From contig OW203762.1 of NCBI GenBank assembly GCA_934045905.1, positions 1,860,001-1,924,000 of the forward strand: a stretch of 64,000 bases of DNA, given 5' to 3'. A program made the translations under genes and the position numbers. Shown piece after piece: positions 22,305 through 62,147 of the stretch; position 1 is the stretch's first letter; every line of letters starts with the position of its first letter. Source of the DNA: Leuctra nigra (lineage: Eukaryota > Arthropoda > Insecta > Plecoptera > Leuctridae). The notes under the pieces were generated by a model. That model was not told where the DNA came from. It searched no databases and saw only the letters and a list, made by a program, of their open reading frames with translations.

Positions 22305-22511
22305 TCACTGTCTCGCCAGCTCCTCCTCAGCCAGTTCTCTCCGCAGCCGCTTGGCGGCGTTGCCTCTGCCCGCGGACGCGTCGTCGTCGTCGTCGCGGTC
22401 CGAGGCGTCGCCGTCGGCCAAACACTCGGCGTCCTCCTGCTTGCGCTTGGCCGTCGCCATCTCCGCGGCGTGCTTCTTCCGCCACTTGGTCCGTCGGTTC
22501 TGGAACCACAC
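22305..22511 (-). CDS. Nkx6: Nkx6/HGTX homeobox protein, terminal exon (homeodomain helix 3 and C-terminus)
   Basis: Minus-strand exon preceded by CTGCAG (acceptor AG at 22513-22512). It encodes [20 protein letters not shown] and then a basic/acidic tail ([22 protein letters not shown]...) to a TGA at 22307-22305, giving 68 residues. It supplies homeodomain positions 47-60: W48, F49, Q50, N51 and R53, the DNA-contacting recognition helix. The HAAEMATAK sequence after the homeodomain is characteristic of Nkx6. The phase-0 start fits the donor after QVK at 62147 on the plus strand, restoring ESQVK-VWFQN. It is the only copy in the window, yet it lies upstream of exon 1 and on the other strand across the 200-N gap. 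The best reading is a scaffold join error rather than a pseudogene: the reading frame, splice site and stop are intact. The acidic tail is short compared with vertebrate Nkx6. Confidence 0.93.
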
Positions 22512-22820
22512 CTGCAGACAGACACGAGCTTAGCAACACTTCTGTACACCTGCAGACAGACACGAGCTTAGCAACACTTCTGTACACCTGCAGACAGACA
22601 CGAGCTTAGCAACACTTCTGTACACCTGCAGACAGACACGAGCTTAGCAACACTTCTGTACACCTGCAGACAGACACGAGCTTAGCAACACTTCTGTACA
22701 CCTGCAGACAGACACGAGCTTAGCAACACTTCTGTACACCTGCAGACAGACACGAGCTTAGCAACACTTCTGTACACCTGCAGACAGACACGAGCTTAGC
22801 AACACTTCTGTACACCTGCA
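22509..22820. repeat. 38-bp tandem array (8 copies) overlapping the exon 3 splice acceptor
   Basis: The unit starts CACCTGCAGACAGACACGAG. Exact starts fall at 22509 + 38n for eight copies, plus an 8-base remnant. The first unit overlaps the first three bases and the acceptor of Nkx6 exon 3. On the minus strand every unit reads GTCTGTCTGCAG/GTG, the same acceptor context as the real exon. The array therefore adds about seven candidate decoy acceptors just upstream. Confidence 0.95.
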
Positions 22821-22976
22821 CATACAAAATGGTATTCGAAAGAATGATTTGCAACTCGTGATCCATTGCTCAATAACTCTAATAGGAACCTGACAAGACA
22901 ATCCGTTTCGTTCAAATACCGTTTGAAGCCAAGTGGATCCGAGGGGTGATAATATGGCACCAAATACACGAAGCAA
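22821..22976. mobile_element. Probable fragment of the Tc1/mariner-like MITE family
   Basis: GACAATCCGTTTCGTTCAAATACCGTTT (22891-22924) resembles GACAATCCATTTCTTTCAAATACCGTTTT in the MITE at 34399-34614. The rest is diverged, and the sequence ends at the assembly gap. Confidence 0.5.
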
Positions 22977-23176
22977 NNNNNNNNNNNNNNNNNNNNNNNN
23001 NNNNNNNNNNNNNNNNNNNNNNNNNNNNNNNNNNNNNNNNNNNNNNNNNNNNNNNNNNNNNNNNNNNNNNNNNNNNNNNNNNNNNNNNNNNNNNNNNNNN
23101 NNNNNNNNNNNNNNNNNNNNNNNNNNNNNNNNNNNNNNNNNNNNNNNNNNNNNNNNNNNNNNNNNNNNNNNNNNNN
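22977..23176. other. Assembly gap of 200 N
   Basis: Exactly 200 unknown bases, a round placeholder size typical of a scaffolding join rather than a measured gap. Apparent open frames across it are meaningless. Nkx6 exon order shows that the join is probably wrong in orientation. Confidence 0.99.
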
Positions 23177-23526
23177 ATCTTGCTTGTGAACAACTATAAA
23201 TAAAAATATATAGGTACTATAATAATATACCTACTATAAATATAATTTTTAGCGAAAAACTCACCTCTCTTGACCTGCGACTCGGGTTTATGCAAATGCT
23301 CTTGTATATGTCTATGTTTATGTTTATGTTTATGTCTTCTTATTCCTCAAGTCGATTCAAGAAGTCGAACGGAAAATATGTTCCACGTTTTGAATGTTTC
23401 AAAAGCATTGAAAATATTAATGACATATCACAAGTCGACTGAATTTCAAATCACATGTTATTTCAAGACTTAATGTCCTACACCACTTCTTTAGTCAAGA
23501 ATGGCACTTCGACTAACAAATTGTGT
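23177..23526. other. Unannotated non-coding stretch
   Basis: AT-rich contig start with a short (ATGTTT)n run near 23303-23335. No gene seen. Confidence 0.4.
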
Positions 23527-24813
23527 CTTCTACACGGCACCTCCACTACTTTTAGGATAAATATAACCCCTCAACTACTTAATTTCGTATTTTACACGGC
23601 ACCTCCACTACTTTTAGGATAAATATAACCCCTCAACTACTTAATTTCGTCTTTTACACGGCACCTCCACTACTTTTAGGATAAATATAACCCCTCAACT
23701 ACTTAATTTCGTCTTTTACACGGCACCTCCACTACTTTTAGGATAAATATAACCCCTCAACTACTTAACTTCGTCTTTTACACGGCACCTCCACTACTTT
23801 TAGTATAAATATAACCCCCCAACTACTTAATTTCGTCTTTTACACGGCACCTCCACTACTTTTAGTATAAATATAGCCCCTCAACTACTTAATTTCGTCT
23901 TTTATACGGCACCTCCACTACTTTTAGGATAAATATAGCCCCTCAACTACTTAACTTCGTCTTTTATACGGCACCTCCACTACTTTTAGGATAAATATAG
24001 CCCCTCAACTACTTAATTTCGTCTTTTACACGGCATCTCCACTACTTGTAGGATAAATATAACCCCTCAACTACTTAATTTGGTTTTTTACACGGCACCT
24101 CCACTACTTGTAGGATAAATATAACCCCTCAACTACTTAATTTGGTTTTTTACACGGCACCTCCACTACTTGTAGGATAAATATAGCCCCTCAACTACTT
24201 AATTTGGTTTTTTACACGGCACCTCCACTACTTGTAGGATAAATATAGCCCCTCAACTACTTAATTTGGTTTTTTTCACGGCACCTCCACTACTTGTAGG
24301 ATAAATATAACCCCTCAACTACTTAATTTGGTTTTTTACACGGCACCTCCACTACTTGTAGGATAAATATAGCCCCTCAACTACTTAATTTGGTTTTTTA
24401 CACGGCACCTCCACTACTTGTAGGATAAATATAGCCCCTCAACTACTTAATTTGGTTTTTTACACGGCACCTCCACTACTTGTAGGATAAATATAACCCC
24501 TCAACTACTTAATTTGGTTTTTTACACGGCATCTCCACTACTTGTAGGATAAATATAACCCCGCAACTACTTAATTTGGTTTTTTACACGGCACCTCCAC
24601 TACTTGTAGGATAAATATAACCCCTCAACTACTTAATTTGGTTTTTTACACGGCACCTCCACTACTTTTAGGATAAATATAACCCCTCAACTAGTTAATT
24701 TCGTTTTTTACACGGCACCTCCACTACTTTTAGGACAAATATAACCCCTCAACTACTTAATTTCGTCTTTTACACGGCACCTCCACTACTTTTAGGATGA
24801 ACATGGCCCCTCC
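23527..24813. repeat. 62-bp tandem array, about 21 copies
   Basis: The unit starts ACACGGCACCTCCACTACTT and ends AATTTCGTCTTTT. It falls into two blocks by sequence: TTCGTCTTTT/CTTTTAGGAT units at both ends and TTGGTTTTTT/CTTGTAGGAT units in the middle (about 24040-24650). This suggests block amplification. It lies 0.6-2 kb upstream of Nkx6 exon 1. Confidence 0.96.
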
Positions 24814-25431
24814 ACCAGGTCTTGAACACTAAATTATTTATTACTTCATGCAATTATAAGTTCTTTTACCGCATGAAACTTCTAATAACTATTTTAATAG
24901 ATCAGAGTATTGAATGTATTTGTAATCGTGAATTGGAATGAACATGGCAGTTGCTTAATGAGAGTGAGAATGATTGCGTGTTTTAAAGAGCAACTCTTTC
25001 ACGGGGAGTTGTTTAATAAAAAGAGGGCTTTAATGATGTTTCTTTGGAAAGTTGCTATCATCTCCTGTTTAGCTCATCGCGGATGAATTGCCTTGTTGAA
25101 CAACACTCTGGGGGCCGGGGAGGGGGGTTAAACTCCCAACCAATCACACACGCCCATTTCAGAAGGCGGGAAACTCGTCTCGACCAATCCGGTCTCTCCT
25201 CTGACGATAAGCCCGACCCTCAGTGGTATGAATCTACCATCAATCTCTTTCAAAAAGTTCACAAACCCATGAGGGGGCATGAAAAGGTCTTCCCTCCCCT
25301 TTGTGTCGGAGATGTCGGCACGTCCCTTCCCATTGTTAAATCTCGCCCCCCCCCCCCCACACCCCGGCCGTGTTCAGGTCGGCAATGATGGGACTTGGTT
25401 TAATCCCGTGCGAGGTGTCGTCGAGTGCAGT
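24814..25431. other. Upstream region of Nkx6
   Basis: Non-repetitive sequence that becomes GC-rich from about 25100, with C- and G-rich patches (25110-25125, 25346-25356). No TATA box was picked out. It probably contains the promoter, but no site is certain. Confidence 0.4.
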
Positions 25432-25437
25432 TCAGTT
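25432..25437 (+). promoter_or_regulatory. Candidate initiator (TCAGTT)
   Basis: TCAGTT matches the arthropod initiator TCAKTY and sits 211 bases before the first in-frame ATG of exon 1. No downstream promoter element was found at the expected spacing. Short motifs of this kind arise by chance, so this is tentative. Confidence 0.25.
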
Positions 25438-25642
25438 CGCTCTCGTGTCTGTGCGTGTTCCAGCGTGATGGTCCCCAGTCGGGCGTCGTAGTCACATCGC
25501 CTTCACCACGGCCGCCACGACGGCTTCCCCACGCGACTTCAACCACCATCGTCTAGCGGCCACGGACGACTCGCAAGGTTCATCGCTCTCCTCATCGCGG
25601 CCGTCGTCGACCTCGCCGGCGCCCGGCGCCTTCCATCCCGGC

Positions 25643-26264
25643 ATGCTGGACTTCAGCGGCGGAGGGTCGTACCAGCCTCCGAGTCATCCCGTCGTCGCCA
25701 ACCCGTCGGTCTTGTCATTCCTCAACATGAACATGGAGAACGCGGCTCGAGGAGGGTCGACTGGCGGGAACGCGTTCATGCTCGGGAACCAACCTCTCGC
25801 CGCGCTGCACAGCATGGCGGAGATGAAGTCGGCGGCGTTGTTCCAACAGCATCAGCAGCAGAGCCAGTACATGGCCGGGCACATGGGCAGTCCGGGCAGC
25901 GGCAAGGGCAGCCCCAACGGCTCCACCACGAGCTCCGGGGGCGGCCACACGACCACCACCACAGCCAACCCGCATGGCATCGACCACATCCTCAGTCGGC
26001 CGGCGCCCATCACGACATCCTCGAGCTCGTCGTCTGGAGGGTTGCCGCGCGGGTTCAACGTGTCAGCAGCGGGGATGGCTGCCGCTGGGATGGCGGCGGC
26101 GGCGGGCATGGCGGCGGCGTCGTACTTCCACCACCACCACAACACTGCCGCCGGCAAACATCACCACCCTCTCGCAGAGCTGACGTCGAGGTCGGCGATC
26201 TACTGGCCGGGGCTGCAGGGCCTCGTCAGCAACCCAATGGCGTGGCGAGACCGCCTGGCTACAA
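25643..26264 (+). CDS. Nkx6: Nkx6/HGTX homeobox protein, first coding exon
   Basis: Encodes 207 residues plus one base. Nkx6 marks: PLAALHSMAEMK (residues 51-62), the eh1-like repressor motif HGIDHILSRP (111-120) that recruits Groucho, and a SAIYWPGLQGLVSNPMAWRD block (184-203) before the homeodomain linker. Low-complexity Gln/His, Gly/Ser/Thr and Ala/Met tracts separate them. Nkx6 proteins are nuclear repressors acting in neural patterning, notably motor neuron fate. The exon ends GCTACAA at a GTGAGT donor (26265) in phase 1. Joined to TG at 61969, this makes ATG and continues in frame. The start is the first ATG in this frame after the stop at 25466. However, the frame is open back to 25469 and reads like protein (SPRDFNHHRLAATDDSQGSS), so the true N-terminus may lie upstream. 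Confidence 0.93.
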
Positions 26265-27545: not shown

Positions 27546-28928
27546 ACTGTTGCCGCGGTATTCTCACAACAAACTCGCCCTTGCACCGCCCGTCGCTTAC
27601 CTTCTAGACGTGATCCTTCAAATGATCATCATAATAGGTTCTAGATCTAAGAGATCGGTTTTATCACAAGTATCGGGATGATCGCTTTGCCACAAGTGTG
27701 TATTCATACCGAGTTCCTTCTGTGAAGTGTTCGTGTTTGTTCGTTGACATCAAGAACAGTTCTGCGGTTTTGCCACGGGATTTTCTACGCAACGTCCCGG
27801 CCGTCTGTCAGACTTCTTCAGTTCGTTTCGAATCAGCTTACGATTAATGCTTAATTAAAAAACACCAAAAAATACAACACGTTGTTTAAAATACAATTTT
27901 ACATTTTTTTCTATTCGATTTCTCCTGAATGATTTGTTTAATTAGTTTAATTTAATTTAATTTTGTCTAATTTTGTTTAATTTTGTCGTACTATTACATT
28001 AAAAAACCTGGTATAGGGGTCTGCAAAATGATGTAGGTATCAGGAAATCCGTAAATCATTGAGGTAATTAGGAATTATCAGTGTTTTCAAGATTTTGTTA
28101 AAAGTAATTTTATTTTGATAAGAACAAAATGAAGCATGCAATTTTAGTCCTATCAAATACATTTTAACAGAATATACATTTCGAATTCGAAATGCTAGAG
28201 ATAATACAAAAGTGTAATAATTAATAAATAATTAAATGCTTCAAATTTATGCATGTTTTTCATACTTAGTCGACGTTAATTTCTGTGTAAATATCCCTCC
28301 CAAAGAAGTCTTTATTACAATTTGATAATAAAACAAATAAATATTACGAGCAATGACATGTCTATCGAATTCATTAATGGACCTATAAAATGGGGCTCGC
28401 AATTGCAAGAAGTTTGTCCAAGAATCGTGTCAGATGATTATTGAGTTGCGAAATTACACATTAGAGCGATCTTTGTGTTTACATTGACCGAGTAACAATA
28501 TACCTACCTAAATATTGAAGAACACGGTCAGAAATTAATTCCATAAGAAAATAATACTTACTTCATTAATCATTAGATACATAGGGATATTTTGTAGAAT
28601 GTTCGCACAAAATCACACCGGAATGTGGGAATTCCGACAAACTATAATACCTATAATAAATAATTATAGGTACTATAGCTTTTATGATTATTTAATTAAG
28701 ATTAAATTTTGATAATTGTACCAATCATTTGAATATGCATCATAAATGATATTTCAATTCAATTCGAAATAAGTTTATAATTGAATAATGTTTTGTTTAT
28801 TTATTTGTATTTGCAGTGGACAATAAAACTTTGTAATTGCAATTTCCATATAACCAAGCAAAGTAATACACATTATTTAACATAATTAAAATGAACATGG
28901 ACAATGAATATGATAGGTTTAAATATAA
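27546..28928. other. Unannotated intronic stretch
   Basis: AT-rich intron sequence with a TTAATTTAATTTTGTC low-complexity patch (27938-27985). No gene or element recognised. Confidence 0.45.
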
Positions 28929-30251
28929 TTGAGCGAGCGAAGCGAGCGTCTCCATTTGGCTCTTTTGGCACGGACCTCTGTTTTTTTTTTGTTTGTTTTT
29001 TTTTTTTCTGTTACTGACGATATACAGGTCAGAGTTTTTCTTCGATCGAGCTGAAATTTTGCACACATGTACGTAACATTTCTGATTGTTGCAGACCCTA
29101 ATTTTTTTGAAATCCATTGATTGGTTCAAATTTAAAAAAAATTAACTTTCGATTGGTTGTTTTGATCAAATTGAAATTTTGACAAGTCATTACCCCCAAC
29201 ATTGTACCCAATCAAACAAAGTTTCAGCCAAATCCTCCCATTGGTTAAAATTTAAAACCATCTTTCCTGTGTTTTTAGAAATTTAAACTATAACCGATTG
29301 AACGATCAACTTATAACTTCGCATGATGGTTGGGTCCAACATTATCTGCATTTTTGACAATTTTCATACTAATCTGTGTTTAAATCCAAACGTTATTGAC
29401 ATTTTACGGACTATTAGCGTGTTGGCTGTCAAATTCACGGCGACTTCGACTCTTCAGTTCAAGGCAAGGTAGTTAGAGCAGAAACTTTCAAACGCAAATG
29501 AAACTGATAATGACCGTTCAACAGTCGATCTGATATTGTGTAGACACACTTATATCATATGAGTGGTCTCAGGTATATTTTTTGAAGGAGATCCTGTGAT
29601 TTTTGAAAATTAACACGGAACAGTTCAATCATAAAGGTTCAATTGATCAACTTAAAGCTTTGCATGGTTATTTGGACCAATATTTTAGGAATGTTTTGAG
29701 ATTTCTATACAAATCTGTGGCGAAATTTTAGAATTATTGGCTTTTAATGACATTTTCGATAGACAGAATTTCGGTTCGAGGTGTTGCGCGTATCCGTGCT
29801 CGCTCATCAACGCGTTACTCAGATTCATTGGTTAAAATTTAAATAAATATCTCCTGATAGGCTGAAAAATGAAAACGGTCTTCGATAATTCTGATCAAAC
29901 TCATATTTTGCATGATCATTAAGACCAATATTGTCTCTTATTTTACAAAATTTCATCCCAATCAGTTAAGAACGTATGAAGTTATTTACATTTTTAATAT
30001 CTGTCAGTAATGAAGTATCGAAATGAATGTTTTCCAGTGCCAATTGAAAATTGATTCTGATTTGCTTTATGAACCAGGTGCTTAGATGCTATTTTAAAGT
30101 TTCGATGAAAAGCATACACTTTTAAGTTGATATCATAATCAATTCCATATGGATGTATATGTTTTCTGTGCGTTGTGTACGCATTTCCGGTTCGAGAATT
30201 TGCACGTACCCGTGCTCGCTCATCAACGCGTTACACTGAGCGTTTTCCTAG
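28929..30251 (+). mobile_element. Helitron-like non-autonomous element, copy B
   Basis: A near-identical partner of copy A (8123-9447), with differences in poly-T length and CTCGCTCATC versus CTCGCTTATC near the end. 1323 bases, from TTGAGCGAGCGAAGCGAGCG to a CGCTCA/TGAGCG hairpin and CTAG. It is preceded by A and followed by T, with no other duplication. The near identity implies recent mobility or recent gene conversion. Confidence 0.65.
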
Positions 30252-30712
30252 TAAATTAAAGTCGTCAAATTCAGGGTTGAGATAAAATCCGTCCGCAGTC
30301 GTCAACTTCATAATCGTAGTCATTCATTATGAGCATTGCCATTGTCATAGTCATTGTCATAATATTGATAGGCATAGTCATAATGGACGTAGTAATTAAC
30401 TTTCATTGTCTTAGTGCTTTATCGTCTTCACAAGTTCACGCTGAACGAGTCAAGAACTTTAGATAATTTACAAAATAGTAATTAGGTAAGAGAAAGTTGC
30501 TCTCTCCAATTTACTAAAAATAATTTTCAGTTGGACGGTGCTTAATAATTACACTGACAAAAATAACTGTAAATTTCCAACAATATTTTCGAATTTATGG
30601 CACTGAAAAGCTGTAAATTCACAAAGTGCCGTGAAAATCATGAAATCATTAGCATATTGGAAAATTCAAGAATTCCGTTTTTCCTCTTTCATATACCCAC
30701 ACAGCTGCTACA
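30252..30712. other. Unannotated intronic stretch
   Basis: Contains a small CATAGTCATTGTCATA-type degenerate repeat (30310-30390). No gene seen. Confidence 0.4.
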
Positions 30713-34990: not shown

Positions 34991-37900
34991 GATAAGACAA
35001 AACACTCTAGTGCCATGCGCAATGCACTCCATGGAGGTATTACATCGCGAAATAACAGATGTGATTGTTGACACTGAGGTACGCATCAATCTGTTATTGC
35101 GCGATGTAATACCTCCATGGAGTGAATAAGACAAAACACTCTAGTGCCATGCGCAATGCACTCCATGGAGGTATTACATCGCGAAATAACAGATGTGATT
35201 GTTGACACTGAGGTACGCATCAATCTGTTATTGCGCGATGTAATACCTCCATGGAGTGAATAAGACAAAACACTCTAGTGCCATGCGCAATGCACTCCAT
35301 GGAGGTATTACATCGCGAAATAACAGATGTGATTGTTGACACTGAGGTACGCATCAATCTGTTATTGCGCGATGTAATACCTCCATGGAGTGAATAAGAC
35401 AAAACACTCTAGTGCCATGCGCAATGCACTCCATGGAGGTATTACATCGCGAAATAACAGATGTGATTGTTGACACTGAGGTACGCATCAATCTGTTATT
35501 GCGCGATGTAATACCTCCATGGAGTAAATAAGACAAAACACTCTAGTGCCATGCGCAATGCACTCCATGGAGGTATTACATCGCGAAATAACAGATGTGA
35601 TTGTTGACACTGAGGTACGCATCAATCTGTTATTGCGCGATGTAATACCTCCATGGAGTGAATAAGACAAAACACTCTAGTGCCATGCGCAATGCACTCC
35701 ATGGAGGTATTACATCGCGAAATAACAGATGTGATTGTTGACACTGAGGTACGCATCAATCTGTTATTGCGCGATGTAATACCTCCATGGAGTGAATAAG
35801 ACAAAACACTCTAGTGCCATGCGCAATGCACTCCATGGAGGTATTACATCGCGAAACAACAGATGTGATTGTTGACACTGAGGTACGCATCAATCTGTTA
35901 TTGCGCGATGTAATACCTCCATGGAGTGAATAAGACAAAACACTCTAGTGCCATGCGCAATGCACTCCATGGAGGTATTACATCGCGAAATAACAGATGT
36001 GATTGTTGACACTGAGGTACGCATCAATCTGTTATTGCGCAATGTAATACCTCCATGGAGTGAATAAGACAAAACACTCTAGTGCCATGCGCAATGCACT
36101 CCATGGAGGTATTACATCGCGAAATAACAGATGTGATTGTTGACACTGAGGTACGCATCAATCTGTTATTGCGCAATGTAATACCTCCATGGAGTGAATA
36201 AGACAAAACACTCTAGTGCCATGCGCAATGCACTCCATGGAGGTATTACATCGCGAAATAACAGATGTGATTGTTGACACTGAGGTACGCATCAATCTGT
36301 TATTGCGCGATGTAATACCTCCATGGAGTGAATAAGACAAAACACTCTAGTGCCATGCGCAATGCACTCCATGGAGGTATTACATCGCGAAATAACAGAT
36401 GTGATTGTTGACACTGAGGTACGCATCAATCTGTTATTGCGCGATGTAATACCTCCATGGAGTGAATAAGACAAAACACTCTAGTGCCATGCGCAATGCA
36501 CTCCATGGAGGTATTACATCGCGAAATAACAGATGTGATTGTTGACACTGAGGTACGCATCAATCTGTTATTGCGCGATGTAATACCTCCATGGAGTGAA
36601 TAAGACAAAACACTCTAGTGCCATGCGCAATGCACTCCATGGAGGTATTACATCGCGAAATAACAGATGTGATTGTTGACACTGAGGTACGCATCAATCT
36701 GTTATTGCGCGATGTAATACCTCCATGGAGTGATAAGACAAAACACTCTAGTGCCATGCGCAATGCACTCCATGGAGGTATTACATCGCGAAATAACAGA
36801 TGTGATTGTTGACACTGAGGTACGCATCAATCTGTTATTGCGCGATGTAATACCTCCATGGAGTGAATAAGACAAAACACTCTAGTGACATGCGCAATGC
36901 ACTCCATGGAGGTATTACATCGCGAAATAACAGATGTGATTGTTGACACTGAGGTACGCATCAATCTGTTATTGCGCGATGTAATACCTCCATGGAGTGA
37001 ATAAGACAAAACACTCTAGTGCCATGCGCAATGCACTCCATGGAGGTATTACATCGCGAAACAACAGATGTGATTGTTGACACTGAGGTACGCATCAATC
37101 TGTTATTGCGCAATGTAATACCTCCATGGAGTGAATAAGACAAAACACTCTAGTGCCATGCGCAATGCACTCCATGGAGGTATTACATCGCGAAATAACA
37201 GATGTGATTGTTGACACTGAGGTACGCATCAATCTGTTATTGCGCGATGTAATACCTCCATGGAGTGAATAAGACAAAACACTCTAGTGCCATGCGCAAT
37301 GCACTCCATGGAGGTATTACATCGCGAAATAACAGATGTGATTGTTGACACTGAGGTACGCATCAATCTGTTATTGCGCGATGTAATACCTCCATGGAGT
37401 GAATAAGACAAAACACTCTAGTGCCATGCGCAATGCACTCCATGGAGGTATTACATCGCGAAATAACAGATGTGATTGTTGACACTGAGGTACGCATCAA
37501 TCTGTTATTGCGCGATGTAATACCTCCATGGAGTGAATAAGACAAAACACTCTAGTGCCATGCGCAATGCACTCCATGGAGGTATTACATCGCGAAATAA
37601 CAGATGTGATTGTTGACACTGAGGTATGCATCAATCTGTTATTGCGCGATGTAATACCTCCATGGAGTGATAAGACAAAACACTCTAGTGCCATGCGCAA
37701 TGCACTCCATGGAGGTATTACATCACGAAATAACAGATGTGATTGTTGACACTGAGGTACGCATCAATCTGTTATTGCGCGATGTAATACCTCCATGGAG
37801 TGAATAAGACAAAACACTCTAGTGCCATGCGCAATGCACTCCATGGAGGTATTACATCACGAAATAACAGATGTGATTGTTGACACTGAGGTACGCATCA

Positions 37901-39677
37901 ATCTGTTATTGCGCGATGTAATACCTCCATGGAGTGAATAAGACAAAACACTCTAGTGCCATGCGCAATGCACTCCATGGAGGTATTACATCGCGAAATA
38001 ACAGATGTGATTGTTGACACTGAGGTACGCATCAATCTGTTATTGCGCGATGTAATACCTCCATGGAGTGATAAGACAAAACACTCTAGTGCCATGCGCA
38101 ATGCACTCCATGGAGGTATTACATCGCGAAATAACAGATGTGATTGTTGACACTGAGGTACGCATCAATCTGTTATTGCGCGATGTAATACCTCCATGGA
38201 GTGAATAAGACAAAACACTCTAGTGCCATGCGCAATGCACTCCATGGAGGTATTACATCGCGAAATAACAGATGTGATTGTTGACACTGAGGTACGCATC
38301 AATCTGTTATTGCGCGATGTAATACCTCCATGGAGTGAATAAGACAAAACACTCTAGTGCCATGCGCAATGCACTCCATGGAGGTATTACATCGCGAAAT
38401 AACAGATGTGATTGTTGACACTGAGGTACGCATCAATCTGTTATTGCGCGATGTAATACCTCCATGGAGTGATAAGACAAAACACTCTAGTGCCATGCGC
38501 AATGCACTCCATGGAGGTATTACATCGCGAAATAACAGATGTGATTGTTGACACTGAGGTACGCATCAATCTGTTATTGCGCGATGTAATACCTCCATGG
38601 AGTGAATAAGACAAAACACTCTAGTGCCATGCGCAATGCACTCCATGGAGGTATTACATCGCGAAATAACAGATGTGATTGTTGACACTGAGGTACGCAT
38701 CAATCTGTTATTGCGCGATGTAATACCTCCATGGAGTGAATAAGACAAAACACTCTAGTGCCATGCGCAATGCACTCCATGGAGGTATTACATCGCGAAA
38801 TAACAGATGTGATTGTTGACACTGAGGTACGCATCAATCTGTTATTGCGCGATGTAATACCTCCATGGAGTGAATAAGACAAAACACTCTAGTGCCATGC
38901 GCAATGCACTCCATGGAGGTATTACATCGCGAAATAACAGATGTGATTGTTGACACTGAGGTACGCATCAATCTGTTATTGCGCGATGTAATACCTCCAT
39001 GGAGTGATAAGACAAAACACTCTAGTGCCATGCGCAATGCACTCCATGGAGGTATTACATCGCGAAATAACAGATGTGATTGTTGACACTGAGGTACGCA
39101 TCAATCTGTTATTGCGCGATGTAATACCTCCATGGAGTGAATAAGACAAAACACTCTAGTGCCATGCGCAATGCACTCCATGGAGGTATTACATCGCGAA
39201 ATAACAGATGTGATTGTTGACACTGAGGTACGCATCAATCTGTTATTGCGCGATGTAATACCTCCATGGAGTGAATAAGACAAAACACTCTAGTGCCATG
39301 CGCAATGCACTCCATGGAGGTATTACATCGCGAAATAACAGATGTGATTGTTGACACTGAGGTACGCATCAATCTGTTATTGCGCGATGTAATACCTCCA
39401 TGGAGTGAATAAGACAAAACACTCTAGTGCCATGCGCAATGCACTCCATGGAGGTATTACATCGCGAAATAACAGATGTGATTGTTGACACTGAGGTACG
39501 CATCAATCTGTTATTGCGCGATGTAATACCTCCATGGAGTGAATAAGACAAAACACTCTAGTGCCATGCGCAATGCACTCCATGGAGGTATTACATCGCG
39601 AAATAACAGATGTGATTGTTGACACTGAGGTACGCATCAATCTGTTATTGCGCGATGTAATACCTCCATGGAGTGAA
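34991..39677. repeat. 134-bp satellite of self-complementary units, about 35 copies
   Basis: Each unit contains CACTCCATGGAGGTATTACA + TCGCG...AATAACAG and, after a spacer of about 32 bases, the inverse CTGTTATTGCGCGATGTAAT + ACCTCCATGGAGTG. Every unit can therefore fold into a stem of about 34 bp on either strand. Five units are 133 bases (GAGTGATAAG instead of GAGTGAATAAG). Their spacing (937, 401, 401, 535) shows three- to seven-unit higher-order blocks. Short open frames of 60-68 codons recur on both strands only because of the repeat. Confidence 0.97.
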
Positions 39678-41694
39678 TTGCCCATTTCAAGCTTTATTTT
39701 ATTTTGCATTTATAACAGACGTGTAGTATTGAAATTTGAAAAATAACTTTAAAGTAACTTATAAAAGTAACTTTAATTTTTTGGTCTTCTCAGTTACTTT
39801 TCAAATGAAGTAACTTACCAAGTTACTTAGCTCTTTTTGAGATCTGGTTTACAAGTAACTCTGCACCCAACTCTGTATCACATTCTGTTCAAATATGGAA
39901 TAATTTTGCGCCGATGAATACATTCTCGAAGTGACAAAATTGACTTATGTTCAAATAACTTACTTTTAGACCTCGTATAAATTGCCCAGTTCCAATTTAC
40001 TAGCTAATTTATTCCAATGGAGACAAATGACTGAAGAATCCTCTATGAAATGCTATTGATTTGAAGCTTTATGTGGCGATGGACTTTCATTTGAATCGGT
40101 TTTGTTTTGCCCTGTTGATGCGCAGAGCAGGTGCGCGTCACCGAGCCAATATCAACTTCCATGCGCAATAATTCCAAACTTCTCTCATGAAAATACGGCG
40201 CTACAGTGACGCTGACATTTCTCACCGCTTTTAGTGTACATAACCCCCCAAATGGCCGATCCAAGTATAGAAGGTGCGCGCGCACGAGATGAACTCTATC
40301 AACAGACGCTCGTATGAAAATACATGGAAATATTTTTAATGAACATTGTGAGTGTTTTTGTGAGCCAGCGTAGTAAATGAAAGCGTATGATTGGTGGATT
40401 ATAAGTTACCATGGCAACGACAACGGATGACATTATCTTCTTTTTACATCGACACATTGGATAAATATGCAAGTGTTTTCCCAGCAGGATTGCCAGCTAA
40501 TTGCGAGGCCAATGAAGGAGGGGTGGGGGGAGAGGGTAATAATAATATAGGAAAAGTTCGAGGGGATGTCAAACTGTGGCGGCAAACCCCTCAGGACTTG
40601 GCTCACTCATGTTGGGCAAAAATTGAAAATGTTCAATAAAACGAGGATAAATTATGTTGTTATCATGATGGACGTGTTGCTTCCCCCCCCCCCCCCCCCC
40701 CCCTCCCCCATGACACTACGGACCTCTTCTATAGACCTTGGAGACAGCCCAAGGAGACCAGCATTTCAAAGTGAAGAACTTTCTCGGTAAAACAATCGCA
40801 CAAATTATTCAATTGACCAAAACAGAAATTCCTGCGCATGCGTGAAGTTGACAATTTTACACCTTGACCCGTGTGACATCTCTAAATCACTGCCTTCTGC
40901 ATACGAAAATTATAATGCAATAAGAAAGCTGCTTTGTAATTTTTAATTGTTGCTTTTTTGTTTTTTAAAATTTGTCTTTGGCCGTTATAAAATTATTTTA
41001 ACAAAGAATATTTTATTTAATGTATTGATATCAAGAATACTACTATTTAATTATAGATATAGGTGAACTTTGAATTCCGTTTATTTAAAAGTGTGAATTG
41101 AAACTAAATTGATTTTTTTTGTCACCACCGGAACACACGGAATGGTACGTAGTTCCAAACCGGATATAAATGGCATTAGTCATTTCTGTTTTGGTCTATT
41201 GAGTATGAAATGATACTTCAATATCTACTGAAGTCTTGGATGATTTACAGATTTAGGAAAACGTTTTTAAAATCTGATAAAATGTTGTCTTAATGACCAT
41301 GTCAATTTTGAACTTAGCCTTCAGCAACGCTCGCTAAAGTGGAATCAAATTCAAATCAATTCAAATCTTCTCGACCGAAATTGTTCAAATTGAAATTGTG
41401 ATTTGTGCCACTTTGAAGAATGGAGGAAAACATAAATCATACGAGTATATCAATCATGATCTTAAGATGTGATTAAATATTATAGAGTTGTGTCGGTGTT
41501 TCGAAGGTTTACTTCAACTCTATTATATTCATCTCAAATTGTCCAATTTCCACTGGCAAAAATAGATCCGATCCTAACTAAAGAATAGCAAGATTTCAAT
41601 ATTTTCTACATTTACACTAAATAAATAGGGCAAATAAAATCGGAAGATTTGATTTTCCTAATTTGAACCGTATAGTGGAATATCTACTCACTTA
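39678..41694. other. Unannotated intronic stretch
   Basis: Includes a patch of AGTAACTT and AAGTTACT words (39750-39860), probably a degraded element, and a run of 21 C at 40683-40703. No gene recognised. Confidence 0.4.
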
Positions 41695-50629: not shown

Positions 50630-53040
50630 GCGTGGCAGAACAAACACCACTACTATCAATTGCGATGAGCAATATCTGTAATTGATTTCGCGTTGCTGTT
50701 CTCCATAAGATCAATAACTGGCAAGACGCTTGAGGGAAGATGTAGAGCATATTATACCCTCATCATGTGAGACATTATCCCTAACGCCGGTTTCATTGCT
50801 GTTGGTTGCCGCCCTGGAGGTACTCAGACGTCGCGCTAGGAATACGTAAGCAACCCCCACCCTCAGCCACGCGGGGACACAGAGGTAATTAAAAAGGTCT
50901 GTTCATAGATAGAAAAAATAATATGTAAAGCGCAATATAAGCTAGTTTTTATGCTCTTGTCCACGAATGATACTTAAATATGAATTAAGTAGCACTAAAA
51001 GCTTTGTGCGAAACGTGTTTCTACGTATTATATTACTGTATGAAGCTGGAATTATAATTATAGGGAAATCCTTTACCAAAGCTGGCTGCTCTCTACTAAA
51101 ATAATGTTATTATGTAACATGAAGAACACACGGGGGGAAAGAAGATGCCTACGACTATAGAGGTGTCTTCTGATTATTGAGCTTGTAAAGCATGCACTTT
51201 GTTTGTAGGAAATCTGATACACTTTATTGAAATAATGATTTAGATGGACTGTCAATGCAAAAGCAAGGGACTTTCAAAAGTATTTCACTCCAAACGATCT
51301 TGGAATATAAATGTGAGATGAGCTGTCCATTGTAATGCCAATGTTAGCGCTGTTAAAGCGTGTTTGACAATGTAGCCCGTGTCTTATGCTGCCATAATGA
51401 GTGGTTTGATGTTATTGGTATCACAGCCTTGTAGAGTCGAGTGTAATCGCTACAGACACGAGTGCATTAGTTCCACGCCCAGCCGCGCGCGCCTGCCTGT
51501 GCAGAGACATTATGGTCGAGTCGGCGCCGGTGTTTAAAACATGCAAATTACAGGAATATTGGGGGTTATGGTGTGTTTCAGCCCTTATGCCTCCCTCCTA
51601 GCGGGGAAAATACGCCCTTTAAAACCACTTCGGACGGGTTTACTTGAGTTTTATGCCTTAATAAGTATTTTCGGTCGTCGCCGATCTGAATCCCGGACTG
51701 AATTGCTGCGACTGTTGGGGATATTAAATGACAGGAGCAGTTGTAAACACTCTGTTGATTGAGCTCAAACATCGCACAGTTAGTCAACTCAGAGATAATG
51801 TTTGTAACGTCAAATCAAGAGTTTTTAAGAAGTGCACATCACAAGGTACAATTCAAATTGGGAGGTTTAAATCTGAGATTTCAGTTGCTCAACCTTTGGC
51901 TATTCTCGGTTATGAATCTGTTTTATTTTGCCTACCGAAATTTTAATTTTAATCACATTTTAAGATAAAGAAATATCAAATCTTGACCAAATCTAAAACC
52001 AAAACAAAGACAACAGATAATAAACAGCGGTACATAACTTGGTATCATTTACTCACATCTTAAAAAAAATCAAATATCAACAGAATAATTGAATAATTGA
52101 ATGCTAGTTATACTGTTAAGATTGAAATTTTTACAAATAAATTCTTGAAATTTGAGTTGTCCAATTTGAATTGCAAAGTGTGGTGGACTTGACAAAGATT
52201 AATCGAATCGACAATGACGTCAGTCTGTTAAATTGCAGTGGGAACAAAGTCTTAATCTTGGTAACACAATGTTGGACAACTTATAGAAAATGTATCATAT
52301 ATCTGAAATATAAGCAATTTTTACCGTTTCAATATCCTACGCCATTTGAATTTGAGTTCTATGAAAAGAATGTTTTAAATCTGTGTTGTGTTTGTCATAA
52401 ACTTCCCATCGCGTAATGAATTCTGTCTTAACACGAGTTCTTCGATCCAGTTTATTTGATTCGCTTTATCAAATCGTCTCCGTAAGAGTGAGTGAAATCG
52501 TTCTGACCAACAAATAACATCCATCTCTTAATAAAAAGTTTCACCATCAAGTTTCTTGGCCTGTTCCTCTCAACCAAACTCGATCTCAATTTTCTTTCGT
52601 TCTTTATCGACGCCATCTTTCCTCCATTCCTCCCCCTCCCCCTCCCCCTCCCCCTCCCCCGAGCACCCCATATAATAACCTTAATAGCACGGGTTTGGGA
52701 CGCATGCGCACGAGAAGCGCCAATCCCGGAGCGCCATTCTCAATGCCTTCATTATTGTGGTGATAAAAGAGAGTAGAAAAAGAGGTAAAGAAAGCTCAAC
52801 TCCATCCTTCTGATGTATTCTATATATAAGCACATGATGAGGAGAAAGCTTTATGATGAGACGAGGGGGGGGGGGGGGGGGGAGGGGGACTAAATTGAAT
52901 GTCGACACACAAAAAATCTATGAGAGGAAATGAAATGAAATGAAATGAAATGAAATCTTTATGATCAATGACCGCTTCTGAGATGGAAGAAAGATTGTCT
53001 TTTCTTCGGATATAAAACGAGTGAAGACAGACGACTTTCA
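50630..53040. other. Unannotated intronic stretch with low-complexity patches
   Basis: No gene recognised. Contains a (CCCCCT)n pyrimidine tract (52622-52662), an 18-base G run (52865-52882) and a (GAAAT)n run (52926-52956). Confidence 0.4.
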
Positions 53041-56000
53041 TGCGCCATGCAGCCTGACCGACTACTTAACATTGTAATAACATGCGCCATGCAGCCTGAC
53101 CGACTACTTAACATTGTAATAACATGCGCCATGCAGCCTTACCGACTACTTAACATTGTAATAACATGCGCCATGCAGCCTGACCGACTACTTAACATTG
53201 TAATAACATGCGCCATGCAGCCTGACCGACTACTTAACATTGTAATAACATGCGCCATGCAGCCTTACCGACTACTTAACATTGTAATAACATGCGCCAT
53301 GCAGCCTTACCGACTACTTAACATTGTAATAACATGCGCCATGCAGCCTTACCGACTACTTAACATTGTAATAACATGCGCCATGCAGCCTTACCGACTA
53401 CTTAACATTGTAATAACATGCGCCATGCAGCCTGACCGACTACTTAACATTGTAATAACATGCGCCATGCAGCCTGACCGACTACTTAACATTGTAATAA
53501 CATGCGCCATGCAGCCTGACCGACTACTTAACATTGTAATAACATGCGCCATGCAGCCTTACCGACTACTTAACATTGTAATAACATGCGCCATGCAGCC
53601 TTACCGACTACTTAACATTGTAATAACATGCGCCATGCAGCCTTACCGACTACTTAACATTGTAATAACATGCGCCATGCAGCCTGACCGACTACTTAAC
53701 ATTGTAATAACATGCGCCATGCAGCCTTACCGACTACTTAACATTGTAATAACATGCGCCATGCAGCCTTACCGACTACTTAACATTGTAATAACATGCG
53801 CCATGCAGCCTTACCGACTACTTAACATTGTAATAACATGCGCCATGCAGCCTTACCGACTACTTAACATTGTAATAACATGCGCCATGCAGCCTGACCG
53901 ACTACTTAACATTGTAATAACATGCGCCATGCAGCCTGACCGACTACTTAACATTGTAATAACATGCGCCATGCAGCCTGACCGACTACTTAACATTGTA
54001 ATAACATGCGCCATGCAGCCTTACCGACTACTTAACATTGTAATAACATGCGCCATGCAGCCTTACCGACTACTTAACATTGTAATAACATGCGCCATGC
54101 AGCCTGACCGACTACTTAACATTGTAATAACATGCGCCATGCAGCCTTACCGACTACTTAACATTGTAATAACATGCGCCATGCAGCCTTACCGACTACT
54201 TAACATTGTAATAACATGCGCCATGCAGCCTGACCGACTACTTAACATTGTAATAACATGCGCCATGCAGCCTTACCGACTACTTAACATTGTAATAACA
54301 TGCGCCATGCAGCCTTACCGACTACTTAACATTGTAATAACATGCGCCATGCAGCCTTACCGACTACTTAACATTGTAATAACATGCGCCATGCAGCCTT
54401 ACCGACTACTAAATATTGTAATAACATGCGCCATGCAGCCTGACCGACTACTTAACATTGTAATAACATGCGCCATGCAGCCTTACCGACTACTTAACAT
54501 TGTAATAACATGCGCCATGCAGCCTGACCGACTACTTAACATTGTAATAACATGCGCCATGCAGCCTGACCGACTACTTAACATTGTAATAACATGCGCC
54601 ATGCAGCCTGACCGACTACTTAACATTGTAATAACACGCGCCATGCAGCCTTACCGACTACTTAACATTGTAATAACATGCGCCATGCAGCCTTACCGAC
54701 TACTTAACATTGTAATAACATGCGCCATGCAGCCTGACCGACTACTTAACATTGTCATAACATGCGCCATGCAGCCTTACCGACTACTTAACATTGTAAT
54801 AACATGCGCCATGCAGCCTTACTGACTACTTAACTTTGTAATAACATGCGCCATGCAGCCTTACCGACTACTTAACATTGTAATAACATGCGCCATGCAG
54901 CCTTACCGACTACTTAACATTGTAATAACATGCGCCATGCAGCCTTACCGACTACTTAACATTGTAATAACATGCGCCATGCAGCCTTACCGACTACTTA
55001 ACATTGTAATAACATGCGCCATGCAGCCTGACCGACTACTTAACATTGTAATAACATGCGCCATGCAGCCTGACCGACTACTTAACATTGTAATAACATG
55101 CGCCATGCAGCCTTACCGACTACTTAACATTGTAATAACATGCGCCATGCAGCCTGACCGACTACTTAACATTGTAATAACATGCGCCATGCAGCCTTAC
55201 CGACTACTTAACATTGTAATAACATGCGCCATGCAGCCTGACCGACTACTTAACATTGTAATAACATGCGCCATGCAGCCTTACCGACTACTTAACATTG
55301 TAATAACATGCGCCATGCAGCCTTACCGACTACTTAACATTGTAATAACATGCGCCATGCAGCCTGACCGACTACTTAACATTGTAATAACATGCGCCAT
55401 GCAGCCTTACCGACTACTTAACATTGTAATAACATGCGCCATGCAGCCTGACCGACTACTTAACATTGTAATAACATGCGCCATGCAGCCTGACCGACTA
55501 CTTAACATTGTAATAACATGCGCCATGCAGCCTTACCGACTACTTAACATTGTAATAACATGCGCCATGCAGCCTTACCGACTACTTAACATTGTAATAA
55601 CATGCGCCATGCAGCCTGACCGACTACTTAACATTGTAATAACATGCGCCTTGCAGCCTTACCGACTACTTAACATTGTAATAACATGCGCCATGCAGCC
55701 TTACCGACTACTTAACATTGTAATAACATGCGCCATGCAGCCTGACCGACTACTTAACATTGTAATAACATGCGCCATGCAGCCTTACCGACTACTTAAC
55801 ATTGTAATAACATGCGCCATGCAGCCTGACCGACTACTTAACATTGTAATAACATGCGCCATGCAGCCTGACCGACTACTTAACATTGTAATAACATGCG
55901 CCATGCAGCCTTACCGACTACTTAACATTGTAATAACATGCGCCATGCAGCCTTACCGACTACTTAACATTGTAATAACATGCGCCATGCAGCCTGACCG

Positions 56001-59000
56001 ACTACTTAACATTGTAATAACATGCGCCATGCAGCCTTACCGACTACTTAACATTGTAATAACATGCGCCATGCAGCCTTACCGACTACTTAACATTGTA
56101 ATAACATGCGCCATGCAGCCTGACCGACTACTTAACATTGTAATAACATGCGCCATGCAGCCTTACCGACTACTTAACATTGTAATAACATGCGCCATGC
56201 AGCCTGACCGACTACTTAACATTGTAATAACATGCGCCATGCAGCCTTACCGACTACTTAACATTGTGATAACATGCGCCATGCAGCCTGACCGACTACT
56301 TAACATTGTAATAACATGCGCCCTGCAGCCTTACCGACTACTTAACATTGTAATAACATGCGCCATGCAGCCTTACCGACTACTTAACATTGTAATAACA
56401 TGTGCCATGCAGCCTTACCGACTACTTAACATTGTAATTACATGCGCCATGCAGCCTTACCGACTACTTAACATTGTAATAACATGCGCCATGCAGCCTT
56501 ACCGACTACTTAACATTGTAATAACATGCGCCATGCAGCCTAACCGACTACTTAACATTGTAATAACATGCGCCATGCAGCCTGACCGACTACTTAACAT
56601 TGTAATAACATGCGCCATGCAGCCTTACCGACTACTTAACATTGTAATAACATGCGCCATGCAGCCTTACCGACTACTTAACATTGTAATAACATGCGCC
56701 ATGCAGCCTGACCGACTACTTAACATTGTAATAACATGCGCCATGCAGCCTTACCGACTACTTAACATTGTAATAACATGCGCCATGCAGCCTGACCGAC
56801 TACTTAACATCGTAATAACATGCGCCATGCAGCCTTACCGACTACTTAACATTGTGATAACATGCGCCATGCAGCCTGACCGACTACTTAACATTGTAAT
56901 AACATGCGCCATGCAGCCTTACCGACTACTTAACATTGTAATAACATGCGCCATGCAGCCTTACCGACTACTTAACATTGTAATAACATGCGCCATGCAG
57001 CCTTACCGACTACTTAACATTGTAATTACATGCGCCATGCAGCCTAACCGACTTCTTAACATTGTAATAACATGCGCCATGCAGCCTTACCGACTACTTA
57101 ACATTGTAATTACATGCGCCATGCAGCCTGACCGACTACTTAACATTGTAATAACATGCGCCATGCAGCCTGACCGACTACTTAACATTGTAATAACATG
57201 CGCCATGCAGCCTGACCGACTACTTAACATTGTAATAACATGCGCCATGCAGCCTGACCGACTACTTAACATTGTAATAACATGCGCCATGCAGCCTGAC
57301 CGACTACTTAACATTGTAATAACATGCGCCATGCAGCCTGACCGACTACTTAACATTGTAATAACATGCGCCATGCAGCCTGACCGACTACTTAACATTG
57401 TAATAACATGCGCCATGCAGCCTAACCGACTACTTAACATTGTCATAACATGCGCCATGCAGCCTTACCGACTACTTAACATTGTGATAACATGCGCCAT
57501 GCAGCCTGACCGACTACTTAACATTGTAATAACATGCGCCATGCAGCCTTACCGACTACTTAACATTGTAATAACATGCGCCATGCAGCCTTACCGACTA
57601 CTTAACATTGTAATAACATGCGCCATGCAGCCTTACCGACTACTTAACATTGTAATAACATGCGCCATGCAGCCTGACCGACTACTTAACATTGTAATAA
57701 CATGCGCCATGCAGCCTTACCGACTACTTAACATTGTGATAACATGCGCCATGCAGCCTGACCGACTACTTAACATTGTAATAACATGCGCCATGCAGCC
57801 TTACCGACTACTTAACATTGTAATAACATGCGCCATGCAGCCTGACCGACTACTTAACATTGTAATAACATGCGCCATGCAGCCTTACCGACTACTTAAC
57901 ATTGTAATAACATGCGCCATGCAGCCTGACCGACTACTTAACATTGTAATAACATGCGCCATGCAGCCTTACCGACTACTTAACATTGTAATAACATGCG
58001 CCATGCAGCCTGACCGACTACTTAACATTGTAATAACATGCGCCATGCAGCCTTACCGACTACTTAACATTGTAATAACATGCGCCATGCAGCCTGACCG
58101 ACTACTTAACATTGTAATAACATGCGCCATGCAGCCTTACCGACTACTTAACATTGTAATAACATGCGCCATGCAGCCTGACCGACTACTTAACATTGTA
58201 ATAACATGCGCCATGCAGCCTTACCGACTACTTAACATTGTAATAACATGCGCCATGCAGCCTGACCGACTACTTAACATTGTAATAACATGCGCCATGC
58301 AGCCTTACCGACTACTTAACATTGTGATAACATGCGCCATGCAGCCTGACCGACTACTTAACATTGTAATAACATGCGCCATGCAGCCTTACCGACTACT
58401 TAACATTGTAATAACATGCGCCATGCAGCCTTACCGACTACTTAACATTGTAATAACATGCGCCATGCAGCCTTACCGACTACTTAACATTGTAATTACA
58501 TGCGCCATGCAGCCTTACCGACTACTTAACATTGTAATAACATGCGCCATGCAGCCTTACCGACTACTTAACATTGTAATAACATGCGCCATGCAGCCTT
58601 ACCGACTACTTAACATTGTAATAACATGCGCCATGCAGCCTGACCGACTACTTAACATTGTAATAACATGCGCCATGCAGCCTTACCGACTACTTAACAT
58701 TGTAATAACATGCGCCATGCAGCCTTACCGACTACTTAACATTGTAATAACATGCGCCATGCAGCCTGACCGACTACTTAACATTGTAATAACATGCGCC
58801 ATGCAGCCTTACCGACTACTTAACATTGTAATAACATGCGCCATGCAGCCTGACCGACTACTTAACATTGTAATAACATGCGCCATGCAGCCTTACCGAC
58901 TACTTAACATTGTGATAACATGCGCCATGCAGCCTGACCGACTACTTAACATTGTAATAACATGCGCCATGCAGCCTTACCGACTACTTAACATTGTAAT

Positions 59001-60590
59001 AACATGCGCCATGCAGCCTTACCGACTACTTAACATTGTAATAACATGCGCCATGCAGCCTTACCGACTACTTAACATTGTAATTACATGCGCCATGCAG
59101 CCTTACCGACTACTTAACATTGTAATAACATGCGCCATGCAGCCTTACCGACTACTTAACATTGTAATTACATGCGCCATGCAGCCTGACCGACTACTTA
59201 ACATTGTAATAACATGCGCCATGCAGCCTGACCGACTACTTAACATTGTAATAACATGCGCCATGCAGCCTGACCGACTACTTAACATTGTAATAACATG
59301 CGCCATGCAGCCTTACCGACTACTTAACATTGTAATTACATGCGCCATGCAGCCTGACCGACTACTTAACATTGTAATAACATGCGCCATGCAGCCTGAC
59401 CGACTACTTAACATTGTAATAACATGCGCCATGCAGCCTGACCGACTACCTAACATTGTAATAACATGCGCCATGCAGCCTGACCGACTACTTAACATTG
59501 TAATAACATGCGCCATGCAGCCTGACCGACTACTTAACATTGTAATAACATGCGCCATGCAGCCTTACCGACTACTTAACATTGTAGTAACATGCGCCAT
59601 GCAGCCTTACCGACTACTTAACATTGTGATAACATGCGCCATGCAGCCTGACCGACTACTTAACATTGTAATAACATGCGCCATGCAGCCTTACCGACTA
59701 CTTAACATTGTAATAACATGCGCCATGCAGCCTTACCGACTACTTAACATTGTAATAACATGCGCCATGCAGCCTTACCGACTACTTAACATTGTAATAA
59801 CATGCGCCATGCAGCCTGACCGACTACTTAACATTGTAATAACATGCGCCATGCAGCCTTACCGACTACTTAACATTGTGATAACATGCGCCATGCAGCC
59901 TGACCGACTACTTAACATTGTAATAACATGCGCCATGCAGCCTTACCGACTACTTAACATTGTAATAACATGCGCCATGCAGCCTGACCGACTACTTAAC
60001 ATTGTAATAACATGCGCCATGCAGCCTTACCGACTACTTAACATTGTAATAACATGCGCCATGCAGCCTGACCGACTACTTAACATTGTAATAACATGCG
60101 CCATGCAGCCTTACCGACTACTTAACATTGTAATAACATGCGCCATGCAGCCTGACCGACTACTTAACATTGTAATAACATGCGCCATGCAGCCTTACCG
60201 ACTACTTAACATTGTAATAACATGCGCCATGCAGCCTGACCGACTACTTAACATTGTAATAACATGCGCCATGCAGCCTTACCGACTACTTAACATTGTA
60301 ATAACATGCGCCATGCAGCCTGACCGACTACTTAACATTGTAATAACATGCGCCATGCAGCCTTACCGACTACTTAACATTGTAATAACATGCGCCATGC
60401 AGCCTGACCGACTACTTAACATTGTAATAACATGCGCCATGCAGCCTTACCGACTACTTAACATTGTAATAACATGCGCCATGCAGCCTGACCGACTACT
60501 TAACATTGTAATAACATGCGCCATGCAGCCTTACCGACTACTTCACATTGTAATAACATGCGCCATGCAGCCTTACAGACTACTTACTGC
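53041..60590. repeat. 42-bp satellite array, about 180 copies, with higher-order structure
   Basis: The unit starts GCGCCATGCAGCCTGACCGA and continues CTACTTAACATTGTAATAACAT. Two main variants, CCTGACCG and CCTTACCG, alternate strictly over long stretches, especially the last 20 units, giving an 84-bp dimer. The rarer ATTGTGATAAC variant recurs at 56266, 56854, 57484, 57736, 58324, 58912, 59626 and 59878. The repeated 588-base spacing (14 units) reveals a larger amplification unit. As 42 is divisible by 3, frames stay open for up to 1916 codons. A TGA near 54823 is the only break. No start context, splice signals or domain support a gene. Confidence 0.98.
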
Positions 60591-60750
60591 GCACTGCTTA
60601 TAGCATAGCAACTTGTCAGTTGTAGAAGATGCAAGTGAGGATAGAAGGAGATTTAGGGTGAAATTGTATGAATGATGTGTGTCAATGTACTTTCAATAAA
60701 GATTAAAAACATGTGTGTTGTAATTGCCTGTGTGTGTGTGTGTTTTTTTG
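60591..60750. other. Spacer with (TG)n run
   Basis: Short unique stretch with TGTGTGTGTGTG near 60728-60742. Confidence 0.5.
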
Positions 60751-61527
60751 CCTGCACTGCCCAGGTTAACCGCACAATAAAACGATATGAAATTTTGCAC
60801 ATATACTAACGTAATCTATGCGGTCCCTGGGATCGTTTTTGAAAGAGATCATGTAATTGGTTCAAATTTAAAAAACAAATATTTCGATTGGTTGGTTCGA
60901 TCAATTTGAAATTTTAATAAGTTATTACGACCAACATTGTCCCCAATCTTACAAAGTTTCAGCCAAATCCTCACATTAGTTAAAATTTAAAACCATATTT
61001 CTTGTGTTTTTGAAATTTAAACAAGAACCGTTTGACCGATCAACTTAAAACTTAGCATGGTCACTGGGACCAACATTATCTGTATTTTTGACAATTTTCA
61101 CACACATATAAATTTCTCGAAGATATGTGATCACGGCATACTTCGACTCTCAGTTCCAAGGTAGTTAGAGCAGAAACTTTCAAACGCATATGAAACTGAT
61201 AATGACCGTTCAACAGATCGATCAGATATTGTGTACACACACTAATATCATATGAGTGGTCCAAGGTCTATTTTTTGAAAGAGATCCTGTGATTTTAGAA
61301 AATTAACACGGAACCGTTCAATCATAAAGGTTCAATCGATCAACTTAAAACTTTGCATGGTTATTTGGACTAATATTATAGGAATGTTTTGAGATTTTTA
61401 TACAAGTCTGTGACGAAATTCTAGACTATTGGCTTTAAATGACATTTTCGATAGACAGAATTTCGGTTCGAGGTGTTGCGCGTATCCGTGCTCGCTCATC
61501 AACGCGTTACACAGAGCGTTTTCCTAG
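60751..61527 (+). mobile_element. Helitron-like family, copy C with the upstream 3' end
   Basis: Diverged from copies A and B but collinear from CCTGCACTGCCCAGGT through GACATTTTCGATAGACAGAA. It ends CGTGCTCGCTCATCAACGCG + TTACACAGAGCGTTTTCCTAG before T. This end corresponds to an internal position (about 9014) in copy A, which continues another 430 bases to a second end. Confidence 0.65.
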
Positions 61528-61968
61528 TTTGTAACTTGGCGTATCGACAGAAAAATCCCAAGTAAAGTACAGTTACAGATGGAAAGATGAAACATGTAAC
61601 AGTCGTTTTCAAGTAGCAATAGGGAATTATAGAACATATTAAAAATGATCTACTTAGCTCTCCCTTTTATAAAATTTTATATGCAGTTCGTAATTTGATA
61701 CAGAAATTCGAATATTCTATTGATTTGCTTTAAAAACTATCAATTTTAGAAATTTGAATTACCTATTTGAATCATAAAAATAAACAACTTTCGAAAAAAA
61801 TCACAGAAATTTCTGGAAAAATAGTGAAATTGAGAGTATACTCATTCATGACTTTAATTACGACAAAGTAATCATTAAAATGTACCAAAAGGAATGACCT
61901 TGAGGCAAATCCCAATGAAATCTCTCTCTCGCGCAGTGTCTAACAGTCTCTCTCTGTCTGACTTGCAG
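61528..61968. other. End of intron 1 with pyrimidine tract and acceptor
   Basis: AT-rich, then TCTCTCTCTC and CTCTCTCTGTCTGACTTGCAG, a strong 3' splice site for Nkx6 exon 2. Confidence 0.75.
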
Positions 61969-62147
61969 TGGGTCCGGGCGGAATGTCGATGGTAGACAAG
62001 GACGGCAAGAAGAAACACACGCGACCGACATTCAGCGGCCAGCAGATCTTCGCGCTGGAGAAGACTTTCGAGCAGACCAAATACCTCGCTGGGCCTGAGA
62101 GAGCGAAGCTGGCTTATGCGCTGGGCATGTCAGAGTCACAAGTCAAG
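61969..62147 (+). CDS. Nkx6: Nkx6/HGTX homeobox protein, exon 2 (homeodomain positions 1-46)
   Basis: 179 bases between ACTTGCAG and GTAAAC. It completes the split ATG codon from exon 1 and encodes [20 protein letters not shown], then [20 protein letters not shown] and [19 protein letters not shown]. This is homeodomain arm, helices 1 and 2 and the start of helix 3, nearly identical to the Nkx6 family consensus. The [20 protein letters not shown] stretch is specific to Nkx6. The homeodomain spans about residues 222-281 of the joined protein. It stops at position 46, so exon 3 must provide the recognition helix. The only such exon in the window is on the minus strand at 22511-22305. Reading through the donor reaches a stop after about 39 codons of non-homeodomain sequence, so splicing is required. 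Confidence 0.97.

Follow-up and report, generated by a model that had tools for sequence, protein, structure and literature searches.

A probable contig orientation error at Nkx6 and tandem arrays across homeobox splice sites in the stonefly Leuctra nigra

How does the homeobox gene Nkx6 of the stonefly Leuctra nigra come to have its first two exons on one strand and its terminal exon on the other, across an assembly gap? The question is raised by a 64,000-nucleotide stretch of chromosome 2 (the window; C2:1860001–1924000 of the YaHS-scaffolded assembly ipLeuNigr2.1), for which a preliminary description had proposed a scaffold mis-join. We compared the window together with 100 kb on each side (C2:1760001–2024000, 264 kb), naming the sequence to the left of the first gap contig A, that between the two gaps contig B, and that to the right of the second gap contig C. 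Contig B holds exons 1 and 2, and in the Hi-C ordering of contigs it very probably stands in the right position but in the wrong orientation. Such a mis-join is ordinary; the interesting part of the locus is the presence of tandem arrays of the type called mirages, in which repeat units span an exon–intron boundary.

Exon Anatomy and Identity of Nkx6

The coding part of Nkx6 exon 1, taken from the first in-frame Met, lies on the plus strand at 25643–26264 and ends at the donor A/GTGAGT (slashes mark splice sites). Exon 2, also on the plus strand (61969–62147; acceptor CTTGCAG/, donor AAG/GTAAAC), encodes homeodomain profile positions 1–46 and was recovered as a PF00046 match at C2:1922013–1922150 in a homeodomain profile search of the genome. 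Exon 3, which runs through the stop codon, lies on the minus strand at 22305–22511, with the acceptor CTGTCTGCAG/GTGTGG. Intron 2 is interrupted by the gap: its 5′ end follows exon 2 on contig B (62148–64000 of the window, plus strand, continuing to 64628) and includes a 60-bp tandem array that starts at 62763 and extends beyond the window end, and its 3′ end occupies 465 bp of contig A (22512–22976, minus strand). The splice sites are proper, the phases match across all three exons, and the joined exons give a single open frame of 335 amino acids plus stop with an uninterrupted homeodomain, bearing out the assignment of a phase-matching, minus-strand exon 3 across a 200-N gap in the preliminary description. 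Its statement that no other exon 3 matches also holds over the 264 kb, in which exons 1, 2, and 3 occur once each; the case that it had named as contrary, a plus-strand exon 3 further to the right, was looked for in the 99 kb that follow the second gap and was not found.

A protein similarity search with the joined frame returned 1276 matches, from the best 120 of which names were taken. Among the matches listed the top named relative is Nkx-6.1 of the stick insect Bacillus rossius, and since this match reaches 60% identity with 99% of the query covered (E 1.2e-107), the similarity is far beyond chance; one unnamed protein has a higher score, at 62% over 100% of the query. The two best named matches are both Nkx-6.1, and many others in the best 120 of 1276 are Nkx-6.1 or 6.2, together with some other homeobox names. 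Judged by its predicted protein, the gene is the ordinary Nkx6 (HGTX) of L. nigra. Similarity to B. rossius Nkx-6.1 continues 5′ of the Met at 25643, over 25514–25642, and the true start may therefore lie in an upstream exon.

Orientation of Contig B

The published assembly comprises 536,298,261 bases in 174 scaffolds and 1,718 contigs (contig N50 0.6 Mb), and was built with Hifiasm and YaHS with 458 manual join corrections, according to passages of its publication (PMC10280035). The genome copy analyzed here falls short of the published one by about 0.1 Mb and 30 scaffolds, its 144 contigs totalling 536,196,549 bases; its scaffold labels C1, C2, C5, C7, C8, C12, and C13 denote chromosomes 1, 2, 5, 7, 8, 12, and X. 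Two N runs, both exactly 200 long, were found in the 264 kb. The first, between contigs A and B (22977–23176, C2:1882977–1883176), is the sole N run in the window, and the second, which closes contig B, starts 629 bases past the window end (64629–64828, C2:1924629–1924828). Contig B is 41,452 bp long (23177–64000 within the window, ending at 64628; proposed true strand, minus) and has assembly gaps at both ends. It ends 2,481 bases 3′ of exon 2, inside intron 2, which fits what a flip requires, and its reversal in place makes Nkx6 collinear with respect to exon order and phases.

We propose that, as contigs were ordered with Hi-C, contig B with exons 1 and 2 would have been inserted in reverse. 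Flipped in place, it would have Nkx6 read on the minus strand in the order contig C (5′ flank), exon 1, a 35.7-kb intron 1, exon 2, about 2.5 kb of intron 2, the gap, a further 465 bp of intron 2, exon 3, and the 3′ flank on contig A. A single flip of one short contig, reusing both existing gaps, would account for the whole anomaly, and the reversed exon 3 is most likely an assembly artefact that is simply cured. The exon anatomy, the two gaps, the size of contig B, and the single exon 3 in 264 kb are direct observations; from them we infer that the cause is an orientation error and not biology. The positions of the gaps are consistent with this reading. Given 1,544 gaps in 536.3 Mb (gap count from a table in PMC10280035), or about one per 347 kb, the chance of a gap in a random 3.1-kb interval, such as that between exons 3 and 1, is about 0.009, and that of a gap in the 2.7 kb after exon 2 is about 0.008, and a gap is present in both; these values are rough, as they assume even scatter, the second interval was set after its gap had been seen, and gaps may cluster in this region, 46% of which is tandem repeats. 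All 54 gaps of a different YaHS assembly are 200 N in the section of its report that deals with them (PMC12134992).

An identical new join (the end of contig B to the reversed end of contig A) and an identical collinear gene would result if the left contig were both misplaced and reversed and belonged after the right contig, the repair envisaged in the preliminary description. There, the left contig was taken to be 1–22976; contig A, however, continues gap-free over at least 122,976 bp, such that both the move and the reversal would involve a contig of at least this size, and contigs B and C would need re-placing, whereas the in-place flip of a 41-kb contig between two 200-N gaps suffices alone. 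In the benchmark portion of PMC11249255, the errors of YaHS with 200-kb human contigs comprised 66 inversions, 16 relocations, and 5 translocations; inversion is therefore its commonest error in that benchmark, and relocation a rarer one. Knowledge of the second gap makes moving the left contig the less simple repair; the move is not needed, and in our judgment is very unlikely.

In Drosophila, mod(mdg4) is a known case in which exons of opposite strands are trans-spliced, and a gene at this locus that is broken, or rescued by trans-splicing, would be expected under a true inversion with breakpoints near the contig ends, whether fixed or carried by one of the two animals used. The HiFi and Hi-C data come from separate L. 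nigra individuals, as stated in part of PMC10280035, so a polymorphic inversion could mislead scaffolding. However, all three Nkx6 exons are intact, and both ends of the reversed piece coincide with gaps, at the low, if rough, chance probabilities given above. We regard a true inversion as highly improbable.

The single occurrence of exon 3 bears on another explanation, in which two Nkx6 copies or haplotypes are present, the exon 3 on contig A belonging to a second copy without exons 1 and 2, and that of the first copy lying elsewhere. Retained haplotypes do occur: curation of the L. nigra assembly removed seven, and an alternate haplotype assembly exists (GCA_934046545.1), both according to passages of PMC10280035. 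The DNA copy count of exon 3 spans 264 kb only, and 46 of the 196 homeodomain candidates in the genome were left unscored. Against two copies, exons 2 and 3 are each single in the 264 kb, and contig B stops at a gap in intron 2, so its exon 3 must sit on another contig end, which is exactly what contig A offers. The genome-wide PF00046 search, in which 150 of the 196 candidates were scored, gave 126 matches, and the 39 distinct exons with a match end at profile position 44–46 were taken as split, serial array copies being counted once (35 fetched singly, three with arrays, and one Nkx6 itself; of the matches with other end points, that on C8 described below was read). Inspection by eye of the other 38 split exons revealed no Nkx6 sequence, and hence no second Nkx6-like exon among them. 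We consider the presence of two copies scarcely probable.

Some results weigh against the flip of contig B. No overlap was found among the four contig ends (3 kb each, compared pairwise), which share matches of 14–21 bases only, so the new joins are without proof from the sequence itself. No conserved neighbor genes that could inform on gene order were recognized on contigs A and C, by eye only, among the 40 longest of the open frames that lie clear of tandem arrays, with no family search run; the longest of these frames correspond to fragments of reverse transcriptase or to Nkx6 exon 1 and its shadow frames, and the others were unrecognized. A search of contig C for a 5′ Nkx6 exon gave none, with weak or low-complexity matches only (14 best listed).

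The mis-join proposed in the preliminary description is nonetheless well supported by the exon anatomy, the two 200-N gaps, and the size of contig B. It would make the chromosome 2 annotation divide Nkx6 into two, and would misassign the regulatory flanks of the gene, which upon the flip of contig B lie beyond 64828 (5′ side) and in 1–22304 (3′ side); the flip also reverses the strands of everything inside 23177–64628. The earlier placement of the left side 3′ of Nkx6 is likewise well supported for 1–22304. The more general advice, that whatever is called upstream be treated as downstream, stands for that interval, but contig A stays put, and it is the sequence beyond 64828 that becomes the 5′ flank.

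Tandem Arrays at Homeobox Splice Sites

The exon 3 acceptor is embedded in a 38-bp × 8.2 tandem array (22508–22820, minus strand) with 100% identical units, the last copy of which constitutes the acceptor and the first 4 exon bases. By eye, every unit read on the minus strand shows GCTAAG, which resembles a branch point, together with a brief run rich in pyrimidines and CAG/GTGT. There are thus nine candidate acceptors, eight in the array and one CAG/GT at its upstream edge, and the exon-proximal acceptor is the only one to yield a full homeodomain; from each of the eight upstream acceptors, added sequence would replace WFQNRR, the DNA-recognition helix, through a frameshift or stop. Because eight of the nine choices lose the full homeodomain, the exon-proximal acceptor would have to be chosen, or part of the transcripts would be wasted.

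Exon-overlapping tandem arrays that cross a splice site were found at six of the 39 split homeobox exons: on C12 (161 bp × 11.8), C5 (109 bp × 6.0), and C7 (133 bp × 3.5), and at C2:33.34 Mb (163 bp × at least 3.8, cut by the edge of the retrieved sequence), C7:9.46 Mb (173 bp × 2.5), and C5:15.77 Mb (130 bp × 5.0; exd/Pbx-like by eye). The remaining 33, Nkx6 exon 2 included, have no overlapping array. A seventh case, on C8 (111 bp × 4.7), lies outside the 39, its match extending to profile position 57; the C12, C5, C7, and C8 cases were first spotted through serial homeodomain matches of the array copies. The seven arrays consist of near-identical copies and cross one boundary each (reverse-complement coordinates: L021, 674–2564; L022, 506–1161; L023, 765–1286; L024, 546–1007; L026, 1–625; L036, 259–693; L055, 664–1312). 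In all seven, by eye, one terminal copy runs into the exon and the rest sit on the intronic side of a single splice site; with the copies so confined, the gene could still be spliced. Tandem units spanning an exon–intron boundary, a mark of lancelet-type mirages, were found at Nkx6 exon 3 and at seven other exons (splice sites by eye).

At a further homeobox exon (L059), a 33-bp × 17.9 array (696–1290) starts a few bases past the donor and does not reach the exon. Two pairs of homeobox exons encode identical proteins, one inverted and 84 kb apart (L038/L039; C4:26034467, minus strand, and C4:25950736, plus strand), the other direct and 50 kb apart (L041/L042; C1:20574105 and C1:20624325); each pair represents either a recent duplication or two retained haplotypes.

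In the window 46.7% of the sequence, and in the 264 kb 46.0%, consists of tandem arrays with a period of at least 8, which include very long minisatellites at 11680–20170 (85 bp × 100), 34992–39678 (134 bp × 35), and 53039–60586 (42 bp × 180). A 1.3-kb repeat is present as two direct copies that share 99.8% identity, at 8122–9448 and 28928–30252, with a diverged piece at 60856–61529; this repeat is possibly a young mobile element. No RNA families were matched within the window. Targeting of arrays to exon boundaries was considered and is unsupported: at 34 homeobox loci, arrays cover 5.7% of the homeobox part versus 12.7% of the 600-base flanks, and touch three of the 34 exons. This difference implies that arrays may have no preferred place of origin and persist chiefly where exons stay unbroken, which would suffice to explain the boundary arrays.

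These arrays raise the prospect, on which we are evenly divided, that L. nigra undergoes active, genome-wide minisatellite turnover that repeatedly engulfs exon–intron boundaries and leaves many genes with stacks of competing splice sites, an insect counterpart of mirages that affects developmental regulators and is still lengthening introns and possibly creating new ones. Near-identical copies of splice junctions in homeobox genes offer a natural test of spliceosome choice where many acceptors or donors are identical, and also of an old proposal, that introns are made by tandem duplication of AG/GT sites.

Comparison with Known Systems

As in Hi-C (YaHS) orientation errors, contig B is short and lies between N gaps of fixed length, and parts of a gene on opposite strands are restored by a single flip. 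No difference from such errors was seen, the present case being recognized from gene anatomy and not from reads.

In Nkx6/HGTX relatives, the homeodomain is split at QVK/VWFQN, and that of the L. nigra gene is split likewise. The stonefly gene differs from insect Nkx6/HGTX in its minisatellite-rich intron 1 of 35.7 kb, and in having its exon 3 acceptor within a tandem array.

In a few searches of open-licence PubMed Central papers, mirages turned up in lancelets, including a lancelet globin gene, a further match concerned pines, and none was found in insects, a weak test of their absence from print; no report of stonefly minisatellites was found in such papers. Lancelet genes with mirages are described as regularly spliced despite their extra splice sites, in the relevant passages of PMC3087553 and PMC3902484. 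From their sequences, the stonefly arrays appear to resemble lancelet mirages in anatomy: the units cross a splice site and carry repeated AG/GT sites, and the copy nearest the exon merges into the functional exon, the others being intronic. In contrast to the lancelet mirages, the stonefly cases occur in insect homeobox genes, several within one gene class of one genome, and the Nkx6 unit is short (38 bp) and contains just 4 exon bases.

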